NCBI GenBank assembly: GCA_947629115.1
Contig: CANRCL010000021.1
Location: 1-14,575, forward strand
Source of the DNA: an uncultured Bacilli bacterium
GTDB taxonomy: Bacteria > Bacillota_I > Bacilli_A > RF39 > UBA660
Length of the DNA: 14,575 bases
Reading direction: 5' to 3'
Shown piece after piece: positions 5,008-13,950 of this stretch; within the stretch, counting starts at the first letter, position 1, and each line of letters opens with the position of its first letter. Under the pieces are notes generated by a model. That model ran no database searches. It worked only from the letters and a program-made list of their open reading frames with translations, and had not been told where the DNA came from. A program made the position numbers and the translations under genes.

Positions 5008-5048
5008 GATTTATTTAATTTTTAATTGTAATTCATCATTAATAAAGC

Positions 5049-5077
5049 AAAAAATAGTGAGTGTTTTTCACTATTTT
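5049..5077 (-). terminator. Intrinsic terminator after P4
   Basis: A 10-bp stem (AAAATAGTGA / TCACTATTTT, plus-strand arms 5051-5060 and 5068-5077) with a 7-nt loop ends in a run of six T on the minus strand. It begins 3 nt after the P4 stop codon. The same stem core, AAATAGTGA, is used in the leuS terminator at 14187-14213. Confidence 0.8.
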
Positions 5078-5080
5078 CTA

Positions 5081-6754
5081 CTAATACACATAACCACTAA
5101 AAATATATGTTTGATTATTTTTAAATTTTACTACATATAAAACTTCTTGTTCTTCTGAATAATCATTTACCACTTTTTTATATATTGTATCTATTTGACT
5201 ATTTTCTATTACTGAATTATTTTCTACGGAGTATAAATAATTATCAGTAGTTATAAAATGTGCTCCCTTTTCACCATTATAATTTAATATTTCTTTTAAT
5301 TTATAATTTATAACTTTATTATTAATTTCAACTTCTCGATTTTCTTTAATAAAAGCATTATTTTTTTCATTTGTTAATACATTTACATAATCATATTTTC
5401 TATTATACTCTAATGAATATCTTTCTCCATTTTGAGTTTCGCCTAAAATTTCATACGTATAATCACAAGTCGCTGGACCAGCAGTTCTTAATAATAATAA
5501 TTTTTGATATTTTTGATTAGCATTTACTTTTACAAAACTGCTAGACAAAGTTTTTAATGCATTTAACATTTCATTTTTTTCATCATCTGTTGTTACCGAA
5601 AAATAATAATGTTCAATTTTATCATTTGGCAATACATACACAATACCATCAGTAGTTAGAAAATAAATATTAGTAGCGGATGCACATTCCATACCTTGAA
5701 GATAGATTTTTTCAACATTAGGAACATTAATATTTATTTTAGTATCTTCAAAAGCATAAGAAGCCTTACCATTTTCTAATACTATTTCAATGTCCTTTTT
5801 TTGATTATTGCCATAACTTATGCTTCCTATTTTATCTTTACCATTTTTTTCAATAGTATTTAAATTAGAACTAACATTTTTAAATTCTTCCACACTATAA
5901 TAATAATTCAATTTACTTGCACTATCTATGGCATTTAAATCTAATTTATCAAATCCATAAAATTCAAAATCTTCATCAATATTTTCAATTAGATATTTTA
6001 TATATCCTTCTAAAGTTTCCTTATCACTTATAGTGGGATTATCTAAATCCAAATTATCATTTTTCAATTTATAATGTAAAATTTCTGAAGTAACTGAATC
6101 TTTACCTAATTTTTTATACAATTCACTAGTATTATCAAAATATTCAAATATATTATAACGTTCATCATTATAAATTAAATCCATATTATGAGTTGTTCTA
6201 TCAGCAATTACTTGTAATTCATCATCTTTAATTTCGTAATTAATATAAACTAAACCAGGAACATTATCAATTTCATTTATTGCTTTAAGAGAATTACCTT
6301 GTAAAATATTTAGTTCAGCACATCTTATATCTGTACAAGTTCCCTCATTATTATATATTAAAGCATTACCTAATGTTTCAAAGTTAAATTTATTATTAGG
6401 AACTAATTTCCAAATTATAAATTCATTATTATCAATATATAAAGTATCTGCCCATTCATCATCAGTAATTTCAAATTTTAAAGTATGACCTTGGATATTA
6501 AATAATAAATTATTTACTCTATTAACATCTTCTCCTACATTAAATGTATATTTTGCATGCTTATCAGTAATTTTTTCTTCAGTTAAATGTTCTTTTATAA
6601 AGGCATTATTATTAAAATTTGGTTTTTCTTTTTGACTATCGTTATCTTTATTATCGTTTAAATAGTAAAGACCACTTCCTATTCCTAAACCAACTAAAAC
6701 CGTTATCAATACCACTACTACCATCAAAATTGTAAATTTCTTATTTTCTTTCAT
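5081..6754 (-). CDS. P4: membrane-anchored surface protein, module X + module C
   Basis: I do not recognise this protein as a named family. Of its 557 residues, residues 7-32 form an N-terminal membrane helix after Lys-rich residues (N-in, C-out expected). An Asn/Asp/Lys-rich linker follows. Module X (about 55-260) has a Cys pair (C140, C145). Module C (about 262-557) is clearly homologous to the second half of P2. Shared segments include NRKYDY and a GFDKLDL / GFEELDF start, and Cys357 and Cys430 match P2 Cys361 and Cys422. No lipobox and no sortase motif are visible. The RBS AAGGTGG (complement of 6763-6769) sits 8 nt before ATG. Its promoter has a G8 tract in the spacer, suggesting on/off or graded expression by slippage. 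It lies between herA and dnaB and has its own terminator. Function is unknown; an extracellular sensor, adhesin or decoy role would be a guess. Confidence 0.85.
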   Translation of the reverse strand: MKENKKFTILMVVVVLITVLVGLGIGSGLYYLNDNKDNDSQKEKPNFNNNAFIKEHLTEEKITDKHAKYTFNVGEDVNRVNNLLFNIQGHTLKFEITDDEWADTLYIDNNEFIIWKLVPNNKFNFETLGNALIYNNEGTCTDIRCAELNILQGNSLKAINEIDNVPGLVYINYEIKDDELQVIADRTTHNMDLIYNDERYNIFEYFDNTSELYKKLGKDSVTSEILHYKLKNDNLDLDNPTISDKETLEGYIKYLIENIDEDFEFYGFDKLDLNAIDSASKLNYYYSVEEFKNVSSNLNTIEKNGKDKIGSISYGNNQKKDIEIVLENGKASYAFEDTKININVPNVEKIYLQGMECASATNIYFLTTDGIVYVLPNDKIEHYYFSVTTDDEKNEMLNALKTLSSSFVKVNANQKYQKLLLLRTAGPATCDYTYEILGETQNGERYSLEYNRKYDYVNVLTNEKNNAFIKENREVEINNKVINYKLKEILNYNGEKGAHFITTDNYLYSVENNSVIENSQIDTIYKKVVNDYSEEQEVLYVVKFKNNQTYIFSGYVY

Positions 6755-6782
6755 TTATTTAACCACCTTATCTTATGATTAT

Positions 6783-6810
6783 ATTATAAAATATTACCCC
6801 CCCCAATCAA
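6783..6810 (-). promoter_or_regulatory. P4 promoter with G8 tract in the spacer, candidate phase-variable promoter
   Basis: On the minus strand, -35 TTGATT (6805-6810) is followed by eight G residues, then TAATATTT, then a perfect -10 TATAAT (6783-6788). The spacer is 16 nt. A second overlapping TATAAT (6778-6783) would give a 21-nt spacer. The -10 is about 28 nt from the P4 start codon. Adding or losing one G would change the spacer to 17 or 15 nt, and spacer length strongly affects sigma-A promoter strength. Variation itself cannot be seen from one sequence. Confidence 0.72.
6797..6804 (-). repeat. Homopolymeric G8 tract (C8 on plus strand)
   Basis: Eight consecutive G:C pairs lie in an otherwise very AT-rich non-coding stretch. 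I saw no comparable G or C run elsewhere in the window. It lies wholly inside the P4 promoter spacer. Confidence 0.95.
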
Positions 6811-6871: not shown

Positions 6872-8647
6872 TTAATTAACATTTTCACTATTCTCTTCTT
6901 TAAACCAAATTTTAGAAATATCACAACTACTACTAGATGGAGCCGGAGTTGCCATATCTATTTTAGTAATTGTAGGAATTAAAAAGGCTGTTCCAAAAGT
7001 TAAACAATTACCTACTTGTAAATTTTTTATCTTTTCCACCATTTCATCATCAACATAAGGTATCATTGCTTTAATATATTCAATATCAGCCGGATGTGTA
7101 ATTTTAAAAACTAAAAAGTTATTACATTGAGATAAAACGGTTTGGGATAATTCAGATGGTCTTTGACTAATTAAATTTAAAAGTATTCCATACTTTCTAC
7201 CCTCTTTGGCTATTCTTTCAAATATATTATAACCTAAAATTTCAATATCTTTATCCATTTGAACATAACGATGGGCTTCTTCTAAAACAATGTGAATTGG
7301 TACCGTAGCCCTTTTAGTTTCATTTTTTACATAGTCAAATAAAAATTTAGAATATATTTTAGCCACTATTTTAGCAAATCTATCATCAAGTTCACTTAAA
7401 TTAAGATTAATAACTTGACATCTTTCTCCATTTTCATAAATTAAATTTTTAAAGAATGCTTGTTTAGAAAAATATCTATCAAATTCAAAATATTGAGCAC
7501 TTTCACTATCAACTAAACTAGCAAGTCTAACTCGTAATTCATTAGCAATTGTATAAATATGGTCACTATTTAAAATTCCCTCATCTATTAAAGCAAAATC
7601 AAAAGCATATAATAAATCTTTTAAAGTATAAACAAAAGTACCATCCGGTAAATTTAAATGCATTTCTTCTAATAAAAATTGTTGTAAAAAGTTAATAACT
7701 AATTCCATATCTCTAATTTTACCAGTTTCATCTATTTTTAAGCATTGTTTTAATGGCCTTGTATAACCAGGCATATATATAGGCGATTCTAAATTTAAAT
7801 TTTTCGTATTATAACGTGTAAGAACTGAAAAAACTTGGTCTCTTATTTGGGCCGGTGTTTTACCATTAATAAAAATATCTAATAGGGCTTTAGAAATAAT
7901 ACTATTTTTATATTTAACAACTTCTTCATCTTCTCTTTTAAAAACATTAACAATTTTTAAGGCTTTCTCAACAATTGGAATTTGATTTTTATTTTTAATT
8001 TCTAATAATAAACATATATCATCTAAACTTAAAAGCCATAAAGGTATTTGTAATAAATGACTATTATTTTCATTTTTAGTTTTATAACTTTTAAGTCTTA
8101 AATTATGATTAGTATAATTAATACTACTAAAGGCATTTTGATATTCGCCATAAGCATCAATGATAAAAAAAGTAGAATTTATAGGATTACAATCTTTTTT
8201 ATAAAATAAATTTTGCATAATTCTAGCCATTCCACAAGATTTACCACTTCCCGTATTACCTAAAACAACTAAATGATTAGCAAATAAATTATTAATGTTT
8301 ATATAAATAGGATAATTTTCATAAATGGTACTTTTTCCTAAATATAATTTTGTTTCTGGTTGATAATTATTTAACCCAAATAAAATTTTTATTTCACTAT
8401 CTTCTAGTAAACTTACTTGTGAATTAAAAGATGGTTTAGTATTTAACCCATGAATAAATGTATTATTTACGATTTCTCCAAATAACTTTATTTCAATAAT
8501 ATCTTTTGTAAAAGAAACTATTTCACCAACATATTTTTTCTTTTTATCAATTACTTTAACATATAAATTAATGATGTCACTTGATACATCAGCATTTTTC
8601 TTTAAAGTTACAAAACTATTTTTAATTTCTAGTATTTCACCTAACAT
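6872..8647 (-). CDS. HerA/DUF87-type DNA translocase-like ATPase
   Basis: This is a HerA-like hexameric ATPase family protein of 591 residues from the chosen start. The N-terminal 90 or so residues are beta-rich and fit a HAS-barrel. The RecA-like core has Walker A GNTGSGKS (130-137), the family DAYGEY motif (164-169), Walker B IVLEEAH (453-459) and SQRPSELS (494-501) followed by a conserved-looking THPAD segment. HerA proteins pump or remodel DNA and often work with a nuclease (NurA in archaea) or a defence effector, but no such partner is in the window. The start is set at ATG 8645-8647 because AAAGGG lies 7 nt upstream. A longer GTG start at 8719 has no RBS and falls inside the preceding terminator. 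It has its own promoter. I see no clear terminator after it, so read-through into P4 is possible. Confidence 0.88.
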   Translation of the reverse strand: MLGEILEIKNSFVTLKKNADVSSDIINLYVKVIDKKKKYVGEIVSFTKDIIEIKLFGEIVNNTFIHGLNTKPSFNSQVSLLEDSEIKILFGLNNYQPETKLYLGKSTIYENYPIYININNLFANHLVVLGNTGSGKSCGMARIMQNLFYKKDCNPINSTFFIIDAYGEYQNAFSSINYTNHNLRLKSYKTKNENNSHLLQIPLWLLSLDDICLLLEIKNKNQIPIVEKALKIVNVFKREDEEVVKYKNSIISKALLDIFINGKTPAQIRDQVFSVLTRYNTKNLNLESPIYMPGYTRPLKQCLKIDETGKIRDMELVINFLQQFLLEEMHLNLPDGTFVYTLKDLLYAFDFALIDEGILNSDHIYTIANELRVRLASLVDSESAQYFEFDRYFSKQAFFKNLIYENGERCQVINLNLSELDDRFAKIVAKIYSKFLFDYVKNETKRATVPIHIVLEEAHRYVQMDKDIEILGYNIFERIAKEGRKYGILLNLISQRPSELSQTVLSQCNNFLVFKITHPADIEYIKAMIPYVDDEMVEKIKNLQVGNCLTFGTAFLIPTITKIDMATPAPSSSSCDISKIWFKEENSENVN

Positions 8648-8654
8648 AATAATT

Positions 8655-8660
8655 CCCTTT
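8655..8660 (-). promoter_or_regulatory. RBS deciding the herA-like start
   Basis: AAAGGG on the minus strand, 7 nt before ATG 8645-8647, is the only good Shine-Dalgarno near this gene's 5' end. It fixes the start 24 codons downstream of the longest open frame. Confidence 0.7.
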
Positions 8661-8675
8661 ACTTTTCTTATAATC

Positions 8676-8704
8676 ATTATACAATATAATTTAAGATTAT
8701 TAAA
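8676..8704 (-). promoter_or_regulatory. Probable promoter of the herA-like gene
   Basis: A perfect -10 TATAAT (8676-8681) has a weak -35-like TTTAAT (8699-8704) 17 nt upstream. It lies directly after the P3 terminator and before the AAAGGG-ATG of the ATPase gene. The -35 is poor, so the promoter may be weak or activator-dependent. Confidence 0.5.
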
Positions 8705-8711
8705 GTAAAAG

Positions 8712-8737
8712 AAAAACACTTAACATAAGTTAAGCAT
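8712..8737 (-). terminator. Intrinsic terminator of the P1-P2-P3 operon
   Basis: On the minus strand, ATGCTTAAC-TTAT-GTTAAGTGT forms a 9-bp stem with two G:U pairs and a tetraloop. A T run follows (complement of A8712-8716). It starts 3 nt after the P3 stop codon and ends the three-gene unit. Confidence 0.7.
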
Positions 8738-8740
8738 TTC

Positions 8741-10486
8741 TTAATTATTAATGTCTTCAAAATTTACTTCACTAGCCGATACCAAATAATATCTACCATC
8801 TTTTTCTTTAAATGCTACTTTTACATAAAATGGTGTGGGATTTTCTTCAAAAGCATCTTCTAACTTATAGAAATATTCAAGGTCATTGTGAGATACTAAT
8901 TCATGGTTATAAGCAGAACCTCTTCCATCACATTTAAGAATAAAATTATCAGTTAATTCATCATCATACGCTATACTATCAATATTATTTGTTTTTTGCC
9001 CAAAGATATATTCATAAGTATCTTTAAGTAATTCTTTAGAATAATAACCACAACCAGAATTCAAAAAGTCAAATAATATATTTCTTAAATTATCACCACC
9101 AAGTTTACTTGCATCATCAAAAGTGCCACCATCTAAAGAAAACATAATTTTTTCGCTTATCTTTTCCAAATTATTTTTTGTGAATGTTAAATTCTCACCC
9201 CACCCATAGTTTTCTTCATCTGTTTTAGTTAAATAAAGTTCTGAACCATATAATTTATTTTTTTCACAATGATTTTTTAACTCTTCATCATATGATTTAT
9301 TACCAGTATTAAAATCACAATCGTATTCTTCATCATTGTTATCTTTATCATTAGTATTTTCATTTTCAATTTTTGTTAAAGTTTTGTTCGCTATACTATA
9401 TTCATATACTAAATTGTTTTCATCTAATGCTTCTTCTTCATAATCCTTATTTAAAATAACAATTATATTATTATTTTTTAATATAATTTTTATTGTTTTA
9501 TAAGAATTTGTTGCAACCACTTCATTTGTTAAATTTTTACCACTTAAATCTTTAAAATAAATATTATTATTTTCTTCAACTATTAATATATCATTTAAAA
9601 CATTCCAAATATTATCATAACCATTATCATTTACTTTTTTATTATTAGTAGTTTCAAATAGATAAAATTTATTTCCAATTTTTACTTTATAATATTTATT
9701 ATTCATATTAAAATCATCATAGTATTCATTTTCTTTATCATATGACATAAATAATATATTATCATATTCGGGTTTTAATATGACATCGCCAGTTAATAAA
9801 TTCAATATACCAAATTTATTATTATTTTCAAAAGTTATAAAATTCTTCTCAAGTAAATAACTACTTGGTGAAGTACTACGAATTTCATCAATTGTTCCGA
9901 CATTGGCATATTTATATTTAATTACTAAATTACCAGATTTATCAATTAAACTAATACCATTATTTTTTTCTACCAAATAATATGCTATTTCGGGTTCATT
10001 TTTATAATTATTAACATTTTGTTCTCTAATAATATGAATATCATCATATTCCCCAATTATTCCTTTATCAAGATTAAATAATTCATAAGCATATTGGTCG
10101 TTTTCTCCGTTCCACTCCATAATTATTGCTATGCCATCATTTACACCTTTTTTTATAGTCACAGCCAAATCTTGTCTAGAGCCACCAACAGCACAAATAT
10201 ATTTGCATTGATATTCATTAATTGCAAAATATCTTTCTTTCTCTTTATCATATTTATAGAAAAACATTTTGCTAGTTTTTTCGTCAAAAATATAACTGTA
10301 ATCTTCTTCATATTCATAATCTTTAATTAAATTATTAGCATAATCATAATCCATAGGGTTATCATTTATATTTTCATTTTTATCTTTATTTAGAAAATAT
10401 ACTCCCGTTCCTATACCTACTCCAACTAATATTAATAGTACTACTCCTAACACAGTAAATAGTATTTTTTTATTATTTTCTTGCAT
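8741..10486 (-). CDS. P3: membrane-anchored surface protein, WG-repeat module B + module D
   Basis: P3 is a 581-residue member of the local paralogue family. Residues 8-33 are a membrane helix nearly identical to those of P1 and P2, followed by the linker KNENIND. Module B (about 62-372) aligns with the second half of P1. It contains WG-type repeats, for example FGILNLLTGDVILKPEYDNI at 225-244, and degenerate copies at about 175-197 and 270-293. A second NTNDKDNND linker (378-385) leads to module D (about 388-581), which has an SGCGY motif (477-481) and resembles a diverged module A. WG repeats are known in secreted or surface proteins, usually of unknown role. The start has AAAGGA (complement of 10495-10500). 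P3 is 31 nt after P2, last in the operon, and ends at a terminator. Function is unknown. Confidence 0.85.
   Translation of the reverse strand: MQENNKKILFTVLGVVLLILVGVGIGTGVYFLNKDKNENINDNPMDYDYANNLIKDYEYEEDYSYIFDEKTSKMFFYKYDKEKERYFAINEYQCKYICAVGGSRQDLAVTIKKGVNDGIAIIMEWNGENDQYAYELFNLDKGIIGEYDDIHIIREQNVNNYKNEPEIAYYLVEKNNGISLIDKSGNLVIKYKYANVGTIDEIRSTSPSSYLLEKNFITFENNNKFGILNLLTGDVILKPEYDNILFMSYDKENEYYDDFNMNNKYYKVKIGNKFYLFETTNNKKVNDNGYDNIWNVLNDILIVEENNNIYFKDLSGKNLTNEVVATNSYKTIKIILKNNNIIVILNKDYEEEALDENNLVYEYSIANKTLTKIENENTNDKDNNDEEYDCDFNTGNKSYDEELKNHCEKNKLYGSELYLTKTDEENYGWGENLTFTKNNLEKISEKIMFSLDGGTFDDASKLGGDNLRNILFDFLNSGCGYYSKELLKDTYEYIFGQKTNNIDSIAYDDELTDNFILKCDGRGSAYNHELVSHNDLEYFYKLEDAFEENPTPFYVKVAFKEKDGRYYLVSASEVNFEDINN
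9343..9367 (-). repeat. Degenerate copy of the module linker inside P3
   Basis: This segment encodes NENTNDKD and is a diverged copy of the 26-27 bp linker word found intact in P1, P2 and at the P3 N-terminus. It marks the B/D boundary. Confidence 0.5.
10359..10486 (-). repeat. Anchor repeat, copy in P3
   Basis: About 128 bp encode the cytoplasmic start, membrane helix and first linker of P3. They are nearly identical to 12027-12155 (P2) and 13819-13950 (P1), with scattered substitutions and small length differences only at the extreme 5' codons. The linker word itself is 10359-10384. Confidence 0.9.
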
Positions 10487-10517
10487 AACTCATTTCCTTT
10501 CTTTAAATTAAAATTAT

Positions 10518-12155
10518 CTACATATCAACTTGCCACATTAAAATTAATCTATTATTATTTTCAAATTCTATAATATATCTTTCAACATCCCAATCGCTCA
10601 TATAATATATGGATTTTATTTTACTATTTTCTACTTTACTATTATTATTTAAAGAATATAAATAATCATCTTCACTTACAAAAAACTCATCTAAATTGCC
10701 TAATATTAATTTAATTTTAGTATGTACTATTTCATTTTTATATTCAATTTCTCGATTACTTTTAACATAATATTTTTCATTGTTATCTTCATTTAATTGA
10801 ATTTCCCTAATATAATCATATTTTCTATTGTTATTTAATGAATACTTATCTCCAGTTTCAGTTATTCCTAAAACATCATAGCCATATCCACAACCAGAAT
10901 TACTAATATGTAATTCTTTTAATTTAATAAATTTTTGATTTATAGCCACTTTTTCAAAAGAATTAGCATATTGATTTAATTCTTCTAATTTAATATCTTC
11001 AAAATAACTTTTAGTATCTAATTTGTAAACATCACCATTAGTTGTTAATAAATATAAATTTACTACGGTAGTACATTCAGCATTATGAATATATATACTT
11101 TTTACATTATCTACTTTGATTTCAATTTTGTTGTTGTTAAAAGAATAATAGGCTTTATTATTTTCTAATATTAATTTTACTGCTTGAATATCTGCACTTC
11201 CATTATTCTCTAGAGCATTAACACTTTCATATTTTTGACTTGAAAAATCATATTCTTCATAATTCGTTTTCATTTCACTATTAATATTAATGCTTTTAAA
11301 ATCTAATTCTTCAAATCCCTCTTTTTTTAATCCTTCTTTAGTAATATTTTCACATTTATTTTTAAGTAAATCATCCGAAATGGCTAAATCATTATAATAT
11401 TTGCAATTATTTATATCTTCAGTTAAATTATTATCATTATTGTCTTTATCATTTATATTTTCATTTTTATCATTATAATCACAAGTATAAATAAATGATT
11501 TTATTAATTTTTGATTATTTTTTTCAGTAAAAGTTAAAATAGCACTTCTTTCTTTTTTACCTAATTCTTCATTTACAAATTCGATTTTCAAAAAGTATTC
11601 TTTAGTATTTGAATTATATAACTTATCTATAACTTTTATTTTTAATCCTGTTTCTCCACCACCATTAGCATATGGAGAACCAGTCTCTACTTGTTTATCT
11701 TCAATATCAAAAAATTCTTTAACTTTAGAATAAATATACGATGGCATTATACCAGGCATTTCATCATTTGCACTATCATGGATTAAATAATTTTCTATTT
11801 TCCCATTCCATAATTCATGTTCAACAATATAATACATAGCAAATTCATATCTACTTTCTGGTGTATCAAAAATATTTTTTCCTACTAAAGCATCATAATA
11901 ATTTAATTTATATACAGTATAAAAAGGAATTTTTTCATTTAATTCATCACTTATTTTTTCTAATTCATTATCGCTTAAATTTAATGATTTAGCATTTTTT
12001 AAAATTTCATTTTCAGTAATGTTTCCTTTATCATTTATATTTTCATTTTTATCTTTATTTAGAAAATATACTCCCGTTCCTATACCTACTCCAACTAAAA
12101 TTAATAGTACTACTCCTAACACAGTAAAAAGTATTTTTTTATTATTTTCTGTCAT
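10518..12155 (-). CDS. P2: membrane-anchored surface protein, module A + module C
   Basis: P2 has 545 residues and no recognised family. It has a membrane helix (8-33), linker KNENIND (37-43), module A (about 44-225), linker KNENINDKDNNDNN (230-243) and module C (about 250-545). The second half of module A, from GGGETG at 165, is almost identical to P1, while its first half is strongly diverged. Module C is homologous to the C-terminal half of P4, including two matching cysteines (C361, C422), the second within SGCGY. No lipobox or cell-wall sorting signal is seen. The start has AGGAG (complement of 12164-12168), 8 nt before ATG. It begins 16 nt after P1 and ends 31 nt before P3, so the three are co-transcribed. 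An outside-facing binding or sensing role is plausible but unproven. Confidence 0.85.
   Translation of the reverse strand: MTENNKKILFTVLGVVLLILVGVGIGTGVYFLNKDKNENINDKGNITENEILKNAKSLNLSDNELEKISDELNEKIPFYTVYKLNYYDALVGKNIFDTPESRYEFAMYYIVEHELWNGKIENYLIHDSANDEMPGIMPSYIYSKVKEFFDIEDKQVETGSPYANGGGETGLKIKVIDKLYNSNTKEYFLKIEFVNEELGKKERSAILTFTEKNNQKLIKSFIYTCDYNDKNENINDKDNNDNNLTEDINNCKYYNDLAISDDLLKNKCENITKEGLKKEGFEELDFKSININSEMKTNYEEYDFSSQKYESVNALENNGSADIQAVKLILENNKAYYSFNNNKIEIKVDNVKSIYIHNAECTTVVNLYLLTTNGDVYKLDTKSYFEDIKLEELNQYANSFEKVAINQKFIKLKELHISNSGCGYGYDVLGITETGDKYSLNNNRKYDYIREIQLNEDNNEKYYVKSNREIEYKNEIVHTKIKLILGNLDEFFVSEDDYLYSLNNNSKVENSKIKSIYYMSDWDVERYIIEFENNNRLILMWQVDM
11417..11664 (-). repeat. 248-bp near-identical patch, P2 copy
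   Basis: This stretch codes for the second half of module A plus the A/C linker. It aligns without gaps to 13191-13438 in P1, with 6 differences by my count. It includes an exact 27-nt linker word at 11445-11471. Confidence 0.9.
12027..12155 (-). repeat. Anchor repeat, copy in P2
   Basis: Encodes the membrane anchor and first linker (word at 12027-12053). Similarity to P1 continues into the first 25 or so codons of module A, to about position 11951, before fading. Confidence 0.9.
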
Positions 12156-12171
12156 AAATCAAACTCCTATA

Positions 12172-13950
12172 CTAGTTAATTTGTTTTAATTCTTTAGTTT
12201 GTAAATTAAATTCATAGATATTTTCACAAACAGTTGGATTTGACTGATTATCGTCTTGCCATAAACATTCATCATCTTTTAATATTTCTATTTTTAAAAT
12301 ATTATGGTCTTTATTGAATGATGGTTCAACACCTCTTATATCATAGCCACAACCACCACGATATACTTCGCAAACTTCCATTGTTTCTTCATAATATTTA
12401 ATTTTTTCATTTGTTAAATTATTTCCTTTTAAATCTTTGATTAAAACATAACCATTTTCTTTTACTACCATAACATTATCAGTAGCAAAAACTATATCAT
12501 CATAACCATTAGTATTAACTTTTTTATAATTTGTTAAATCATATAAATACCATTTACCATTTTCTTTGGCTTTATAATATTTTTTAGATAAATTATAAAA
12601 ATCATCTTCTTCAGATTCAAGTAAAATATCTATATCATCATATTGTGCCTCAACTAAAACTTTACCAGTTGTTAGTTCTAAAATTCCCCATTTATTATTA
12701 TTTTTATATAAAATATAATTATTATCTATTGAAAATGAGTATTCACTAATGCCATCTAAACTATCACTATATTTTCCTATCTCTTGATATTTATAATCAA
12801 CAATTTTAGTACCATCTTCAGTAATTAAAGCCGCTAATTTATTATCATTTTTAATTGTAAAATATTTTCCACCAGTACTTCTAGAAATAACTGCAATGTC
12901 TTCCAAATCTTTAGCAGTGGCTATAACACCTTTTTCATAGTTATATAATACTAATTTTGTATCATCTACAATAAGATAAACCAAATCATTTTCATATCCA
13001 TTATCTAAAGAACACTGAAAATTTTCATTTTTTGAAGTTTCACAATAATACTTATCTATTTTTTTATATTTACTATCTTTTTCATCATATTTATAGAAAA
13101 CTAAAGCATTATCTCTTTCATTATATTTTTCTATATATTTAAAACCATCATCATATTTTTCGTTTGACACTAAATTTTCATCATATTCATCTTCAGTTAA
13201 ATTATTATCATTATTGTCTTTATCATTTATATTTTCATTTTTATCACTATAATCACTAGTATAAATAAATGATTTAATTAATTTTTGATTATTTTTTTCA
13301 ATAAATGTTAAAATAGCACTTCTTTCTTTTTTATCTAATTCTTCATTTACAAATTCGATTTTCAAAAAGTATTCTTTAGTATTTGAATTATATAACTTAT
13401 CTATAACTTTTATTTTTAATCCTGTTTCTCCACCACCACTATCAAGAAATGATATATAATTATCATTATTTGTATCATCTTTTATTTTTTCAACTGCAAA
13501 TATATTATTTATAACTTTATTTAAAAATTCTTTTTTTATACCTTCTATTTCATCACTATCATCATAGTATACAAAATCATCATCAGTCATATTTTGCCTT
13601 ATTTCATCATGTGTTAGAATACAAACAACTAAAAATCTATATATTTCTTGTTTACTTTCAAAAATATTATAACCTGTTTCAGCATCATAATAATCTAAAT
13701 TATAAATTGTAGAAAATGTTATGTTATTTTTTAATTCATCAGTTATTTTTTTCAATTCATTATCGTTTAAATTTAATGATTTAGCATTTTTTAAAATTTC
13801 ATTTTCAGTAATGTTTCCTTTATCATTTATATTTTCATTTTTATCTTTATTTAGAAAATATACTCCCGTTCCTATACCTACTCCAACTAAAATTAATAAT
13901 ACTACTCCTAATACAGCAAAAAGTATTTTTTTGCTATTTTCTTCTTGCAT
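12172..13950 (-). CDS. P1: membrane-anchored surface protein, module A + WG-repeat module B
   Basis: P1 has 592 residues and is first in the three-gene operon. It has a membrane helix (9-34) and linker KNENIND (37-43). Module A (about 45-232) contains GGGETG at 172-177. The linker KNENINDKDNNDNN spans 237-250, and module B covers about 265-592. Module B has a textbook WG repeat, WGILELTTGKVLVEAQYDDI (421-440), and weaker repeats at about 368-391 and 462-486. This suggests a beta-rich, possibly propeller-like ectodomain. Near the C-terminus are several cysteines, including GGCGY (532-536) and C561, C575. Module B is shared with P3 and module A with P2. The RBS-like GAGGG lies 10 nt before ATG, a slightly long spacing. 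No lipobox is present. The domains are recognisable as WG-type but the function is unknown. Confidence 0.85.
   Translation of the reverse strand: MQEENSKKILFAVLGVVLLILVGVGIGTGVYFLNKDKNENINDKGNITENEILKNAKSLNLNDNELKKITDELKNNITFSTIYNLDYYDAETGYNIFESKQEIYRFLVVCILTHDEIRQNMTDDDFVYYDDSDEIEGIKKEFLNKVINNIFAVEKIKDDTNNDNYISFLDSGGGETGLKIKVIDKLYNSNTKEYFLKIEFVNEELDKKERSAILTFIEKNNQKLIKSFIYTSDYSDKNENINDKDNNDNNLTEDEYDENLVSNEKYDDGFKYIEKYNERDNALVFYKYDEKDSKYKKIDKYYCETSKNENFQCSLDNGYENDLVYLIVDDTKLVLYNYEKGVIATAKDLEDIAVISRSTGGKYFTIKNDNKLAALITEDGTKIVDYKYQEIGKYSDSLDGISEYSFSIDNNYILYKNNNKWGILELTTGKVLVEAQYDDIDILLESEEDDFYNLSKKYYKAKENGKWYLYDLTNYKKVNTNGYDDIVFATDNVMVVKENGYVLIKDLKGNNLTNEKIKYYEETMEVCEVYRGGCGYDIRGVEPSFNKDHNILKIEILKDDECLWQDDNQSNPTVCENIYEFNLQTKELKQIN
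13191..13438 (-). repeat. 248-bp near-identical patch, P1 copy
   Basis: Partner of 11417-11664. It codes for the second half of module A plus the A/B linker, with the exact 27-nt linker word at 13219-13245. Most differences to P2 change an amino acid (Cys/Ser, Asn/Ser, Thr/Ile, Gly/Asp). Confidence 0.9.
13819..13950 (-). repeat. Anchor repeat, copy in P1
   Basis: Encodes the membrane anchor and first linker of P1 (word at 13819-13845). Together with 12027-12155 and 10359-10486 it forms three direct repeats spaced about 1.7-1.8 kb apart. Confidence 0.9.

Follow-up and report, generated by a model that had tools for sequence, protein, structure and literature searches.

In the fim genes of Bordetella and the vlp genes of Mycoplasma, a homopolymer lies in or near the promoter of a surface structure; the tract consists of C or A residues, or it overlaps the -35 element or is situated upstream of it. 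The opc gene of Neisseria, likewise with a homopolymer in or near the promoter of a surface structure, belongs to the same group (PMC7864442, excerpt). Poly-G tracts within a promoter spacer are represented by Neisseria meningitidis porA and Treponema pallidum tp0126, the experimental precedents for switching via a spacer tract (PMC7864442, excerpt). In porA, the poly-G tract is located wholly between the -35 and -10 elements of a surface-protein promoter; a single gene is concerned, an effect on expression has been shown and the optimum is given as 17 nt (PMC7864442, excerpt). In T. pallidum, poly-G lies between the -35 and -10 elements of tp0126, a gene for an outer-membrane protein, and the genome harbors several poly-G tracts of at least eight residues; the lengths of the tp0126 and tpr tracts vary within isolates and affect reporters (PMC7864442, excerpt). 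Candidatus Mycoplasma girerdii, an uncultured host-associated bacterium, has length-variable repeats at surface genes; these are mostly dinucleotide repeats that were assessed for how they affect the reading frame, and the main text never uses the word "promoter" (PMC5476646, excerpt).

Here, we analyzed a 14,575-nt stretch of DNA from an uncultured gut-type Bacilli bacterium (the window), in which eight consecutive G residues lie between putative -35 and -10 elements in front of a gene referred to as P4. We liken this promoter, and those of the same type in related genomes, to the poly-G spacer promoters of Neisseria and Treponema, and consider it a candidate for phase variation. In contrast to porA, tens of such putative promoters per genome occur in some of the relatives, with modal spacers of 15–19 nt. 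Differing from the situation in T. pallidum, the organisms are uncultured Bacilli and tract lengths are near-fixed in some genomes. Unlike in opc, fim and vlp, the tract consists of G and is situated inside the spacer.

A G8 tract separates putative -35 and -10 elements upstream of P4

On the minus strand, positions 6810–6783 read TTGATT, eight G residues, TAATATTT and TATAAT, with a spacer of 16 nt between the -35 and -10 elements. The sequence-only reading had described this layout, and all parts of it were confirmed. The features of the region are as follows.

6805–6810, minus strand: -35 element TTGATT (sequence match)
6797–6804, minus strand: G8 tract, abutting the -35 element (sequence)
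6789–6796, minus strand: remainder of the 16-nt spacer, TAATATTT (sequence)
6783–6788, minus strand: -10 element TATAAT (sequence match)
6778–6783, minus strand: second TATAAT, overlapping the first, with a 21-nt spacer from TTGATT
6763–6769, minus strand: ribosome-binding site AAGGTGG (sequence)
5081–6754, minus strand: P4, 557 residues with a hydrophobic N-terminal segment (translated sequence)
5046–5082, minus strand: terminator-like stem-loop directly after P4 (consensus scan only)

The homopolymer lies wholly between the -35 and -10 elements in the window, as in the relatives described below, these elements being sequence matches rather than mapped promoters. The tract is located 42 nt from the P4 start (6754). 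As had also been pointed out before, it has no counterpart elsewhere in the window, where no other run of G or C reaches six residues.

A G8 run might have fallen by chance between promoter-like hexamers in this AT-rich DNA. Such hexamer pairs are indeed plentiful, with 141 promoter-like sites in the window compared to a mean of 121 (sd 11) in shuffled sequences, and the 10/12 match of the P4 pair, taken alone, is unremarkable for the window. However, a G8 run is expected only 0.01 times in the window, and it was present in 2 of 200 dinucleotide shuffles. The weight of the P4 promoter call comes from the position of the G8 run within the hexamer pair and from the recurrence of this arrangement in relatives.

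The overlapping second TATAAT had been proposed to serve as an alternative register. It is unlikely to act as a -10 element for TTGATT, because the spacer would measure 21 nt and about four G residues would have to go.

P4 is a putative surface protein and probably a single-gene transcription unit

The hydrophobic N-terminal segment of P4 suggests a surface location of the protein, with the long region that follows the segment probably extracellular. P4 matched no Pfam family at an E value of 0.01, and word-based searches with the whole protein or with residues 295–555 returned no database relative at E ≤ 0.001, one of these searches having scored only the 7992 candidates that shared most words with the query. 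Residues 267–556 resemble the protein encoded at positions 10518–12155 (37% identity over 294 columns). A structure prediction placed a helix at residues 4–33, with low confidence (mean pLDDT 38, alignment of four rows). As the terminator-like stem-loop directly follows the gene, P4 probably constitutes a transcription unit of its own.

Four paralogues in the window (positions 8741–13950 and 5081–6754) have a similar hydrophobic N-terminus, which is nearly identical in three of them; a G-tract promoter is found in front of P4 alone. The proteins encoded at 8741–10486 and 12172–13950 gave weak matches, below the cut-off, to WG repeats. The gene of a HerA-like helicase (6872–8719) adjoins P4, and in two related loci (L009 and L010) the gene before dnaB encodes a protein that starts similarly.

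Tracts in related genomes combine promoter elements with hydrophobic N-termini

We retrieved 80 stretches around tracts of at least eight G residues from genomes G001, G004, G005 and G006, comprising all 31 distinct tracts of G001 and part of the tracts listed for the other three. Deduplication of tracts with identical 60-nt flanks gave 90 tracts, 82 of them with full flanks. A -35/-10 pair matching in at least nine of 12 positions spanned the tract in 77 of these 82 cases, compared to a mean of 14.4 and a maximum of 23 in 200 rounds with shuffled flanks. With at least ten of 12 positions, 67 of the 82 tracts were spanned (shuffled flanks: mean 3.0, maximum 10), and in the opposite orientation none of the 90 tracts had a spanning pair. 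Chance placement of the G8 run is thus contradicted by the relatives, and we regard it as highly improbable.

Open reading frames (ORFs) of at least 60 residues began within 160 nt downstream of 72 of the 82 tracts, but on the other side of only 12. A hydrophobic segment within the first 50 residues was present in 69 of 74 downstream ORFs (at least 150 residues long) versus 11 of 55 other ORFs (at least 200 residues), with start codons assigned by a simple rule; of the five misses, L105 at least is due to the choice of start site. These observations suggest that the promoter class drives surface or secreted proteins. They also bear on the earlier description of P4 as a membrane-anchored surface protein: the hydrophobic N-terminus is there, as in the relatives' ORFs, while the surface location itself is suggested by that segment.

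The five tracts that fell below a 9/12 match were L077, L115, L137, L141 and L146. L137 and L141 have no credible -35/-10 pair, and L155 passes at 9/12 with a spacer of 21 nt, which makes it doubtful. G8 runs outside promoters thus also occur among the relatives. L137, L141 and L155, all from G006, share a G8 or G9 run after AAAATTC, lack a convincing -35/-10 pair and precede ORFs that show no hydrophobic segment at the chosen start. In many tract promoters of G001, G003, G004 and G006, a CTTATA-like leader follows a few nt past the -10 element (for example, L116 and L076).

G-tract promoters are patchily distributed and vary in geometry

In the family of G001 (145 genomes), a strict pattern (TTGAC, 0–10 nt, G7, 0–12 nt, TATAAT) matched in 30 genomes, with 167 matches in sum and up to 42 in a single genome (G095); its reversed control gave no match in the 145 genomes. 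G001 itself was missed by this pattern because its -10 element reads TATACT. A relaxed pattern, which counted some sites twice, matched in 45 of the 145 genomes (control, 0), leaving 100 family genomes without a match even to this version. At the class level, 33 of 395 genomes matched (control, 0), ten of which were already part of the family sample. The poly-C version of the pattern was found in none of the 145 family genomes and in one of the 395 class genomes, where its reversed control also gave one match. Judged by these matches, the trait is patchy and heavy in a few genomes, and it is nearly always the coding strand that carries the G residues. Patterns with variant spacers found nothing in viral contigs.

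The geometry of the window promoter (no residue between the -35 element and G8, 8 nt to the -10 element, 16-nt spacer) is the commonest one in G050, where it accounts for seven of 14 matches. Among six G050 tracts that were retrieved, four had exactly this geometry, and an ORF with an early hydrophobic segment followed three of these four and five of the six overall. Across 134 tract promoters of relatives, a set that includes loci chosen by a promoter pattern, TTGATT ranked third among the -35 elements (19/134), and the tract lay 0–11 nt from the -35 element and 0–10 nt from the -10 element. P4 expression had been predicted to be strongest at a spacer of 17 nt (G9). The promoter set lends no support to this idea, with 16 nt being the commonest spacer (56/134) and 17 nt occurring in 11/134, commonness not being a measure of activity. 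Modal spacers differ between species (15 nt in G001, 16 nt in G003, 19 nt in the main type of G134), and G004 and G006 each keep G8 in two geometries within one genome, with spacers of 16 and 18 nt.

Tract lengths differ between paralogous promoters and are near-uniform in several genomes

The proposal that slipped-strand changes switch P4 expression was assessed through tract lengths across relatives, and the outcome was divided: paralogous promoters differ in length in G112, G493, G147 and G001, which is in line with slippage, but several genomes are near-fixed.

Three tandem paralogues in G112 have almost identical leaders and tracts of G9, G11 and G10. In G493, one G7, one G8 and three G9 tracts stand behind identical short flanks. 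For G147, length counts rest on the 27 of 38 matches that were listed; among these, 15 tracts preceded by an identical 16-nt sequence comprise five G9, eight G10 and two G11, and nine of the 15, which also share TATTAT after the tract, comprise four G9, four G10 and one G11. In G001, eight of 25 promoters are one base longer. On the G001 gene tree, from which three rows of another promoter type were left out, G8 and G9 are scattered, requiring six changes over 19 rows compared to a mean of 6.0 after shuffling. Two of the seven G9 rows (L079 and L081) appear to have arisen by a T-to-G substitution at the tract edge, and these two would not represent slippage because the substitution leaves the spacer unchanged. 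Across 104 promoters of seven genomes, tallied from printed coordinates, 14 deviated from the modal length of their genome within the tract and two elsewhere, and one further G001 promoter had reached G9 by edge substitution.

Near-uniform lengths were observed in G003 (G8 in 22/23 promoters), G006 (16/16) and G004 (25/29 of the main type), while 32 of 37 main-type promoters of G095 have one total spacer length and 15 of 16 listed main-type promoters of G134 have G9. Three syntenic tracts of G004 and G006, with surroundings about 90–94% identical, are all G8, as are L114 and L139, which are 90% identical over 515 nt in their upstream part; L115 and L146, with 84% identity, have G9 and G8, respectively.

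This near-constancy of modal length within several genomes fits the strongest alternative to slippage switching, namely a fixed promoter element in which about eight coding-strand G residues serve as a signal for a dedicated regulator, or for RNA polymerase itself, and mark co-regulated surface genes. The nearly exclusive use of G, with C hardly ever found, is consistent with such an element, and so are the retention of G8 in spacers of both 16 and 18 nt within G004 and G006, the similarity of the flanking bases (YTC on the 5' side, TA on the 3' side) and the CTTATA leader in several genomes, this leader having been part of one search pattern. However, lengths differ behind near-identical flanks in the four genomes named above, and the tract wanders relative to both the -35 and -10 elements in a manner unlike that of a bound operator. 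We therefore consider a fixed element possible, if rather unlikely.

Alternatively, common descent and gene conversion alone might account for the pattern, if an ancestral G8 promoter had been copied along with surface genes and homogenized by recombination, with length changes playing no role. Within a genome, the promoters resemble one another much more closely than do the downstream genes; those of G001 are almost identical, with the closest pairs showing 80–90% identity over the next 700 nt, and the tract lies nearly always on one strand. Against this stand the different geometries within one genome, the occurrence of the tract before different protein N-termini and the persistence of runs of 7 to 12 or more G residues at loci with 24–29% GC, where neutral runs would be expected to decay. 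An origin by descent and conversion alone consequently appears improbable to us.

Two further observations concern the assemblies. Contig ends near G001 tracts were considered as a sign of mixed tract lengths and discounted, because the promoters are repeats common to paralogues, and such shared repeats break assemblies anyway. In L182 (G147), near position 2978 and beside a contig end, a tract promoter enters a different sequence after just seven G residues, possibly an assembly or recombination joint.

A model for P4 expression

We favor, as the probable explanation, that the P4 G8 tract forms part of the spacer of a sigma-A-type promoter that belongs to a large class of G-tract promoters of surface or secreted proteins, and that this class is switched by slippage at a low to moderate rate. 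Evidence for this reading comes from the anatomy of the putative promoter, its recurrence in relatives, its link to genes with hydrophobic N-termini, the location of G on the coding strand and the length differences between paralogues. By analogy to porA and tp0126, where slippage shifts the spacing of the boxes (PMC7864442, excerpt), slipped-strand changes of the tract would alter the -35/-10 distance and thereby turn transcription up or down, gene by gene. Single cells could possibly raise or lower the levels of surface or secreted proteins via such promoters. The G8 state of the window, with its 16-nt spacer, is probably the active, majority state, and loss or gain of a G at the P4 tract would give rise to weaker variants in a minority of cells.

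Switching probably proceeds at a low to moderate rate, and most loci would stay at a length that works, given that most of the relatives tested possess mismatch-repair genes and that several genomes keep one modal length. The genes mutS and mutL each scored above the cut-off in 18 of 20 relatives; among these draft genomes, G007 and G010 gave no match to mutS, G005 gave none to mutL and G006 contained a mutL fragment only. For the relatives, the same data do not support a general explanation of slippage by missing mismatch repair.

Several observations do not sit easily with slippage. Species-specific modal spacers are not predicted by a plain 17-nt rule, poly-C would be expected to slip like poly-G yet is essentially absent, the trait is patchy and P4 itself lacks a close relative. 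A distinct class of promoter could combine both behaviors: about eight spacer G residues would be a recognized element of a large surface regulon of gut Bacilli, and their number would set expression and act as a slow switch. Were this the case, the near-total lack of poly-C would point to strand-specific reading; we put the idea forward tentatively and hold it to be unlikely.

In searches of open-licence PubMed Central, no title or beginning of an abstract dealt with G-tract promoters in this lineage, and no paper combined "RF39" with "phase variation". Within the open-licence literature searched, three points thus appear to be new: the lineage, how many such promoters some genomes contain, and the almost exclusive use of G. 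If switching by slippage occurs, the repertoire of surface genes switchable through their promoters is very large in some uncultured Bacilli, which are not known as pathogens. If it does not, the G run may represent a new kind of fixed promoter signal.

Tract-led genes near dnaB

A scan for dnaB yielded 15 related loci from uncultured metagenome-assembled genomes, mostly titled Bacilli (for example, Goat_Rectum and Lapin), with dnaB identities of 46–79%. G8 was found in 12 of the 15 genomes of this set. At the dnaB loci themselves, G runs of at least eight residues were present in four (L006, L010, L011 and L015), in each case between -35-like and -10-like boxes and 33–71 nt upstream of an ORF whose product has a hydrophobic N-terminus. 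The tract-led surface-type gene immediately precedes dnaB in L011 and L015; in L010, a HerA-like gene comes between the two. Upstream of dnaB, where P4 is located in the window, the 15 loci vary in content: depending on the relative, the region contains various surface-type genes, a gene resembling that of a regulator, a gene resembling that of a DNA-binding protein, or next to nothing.
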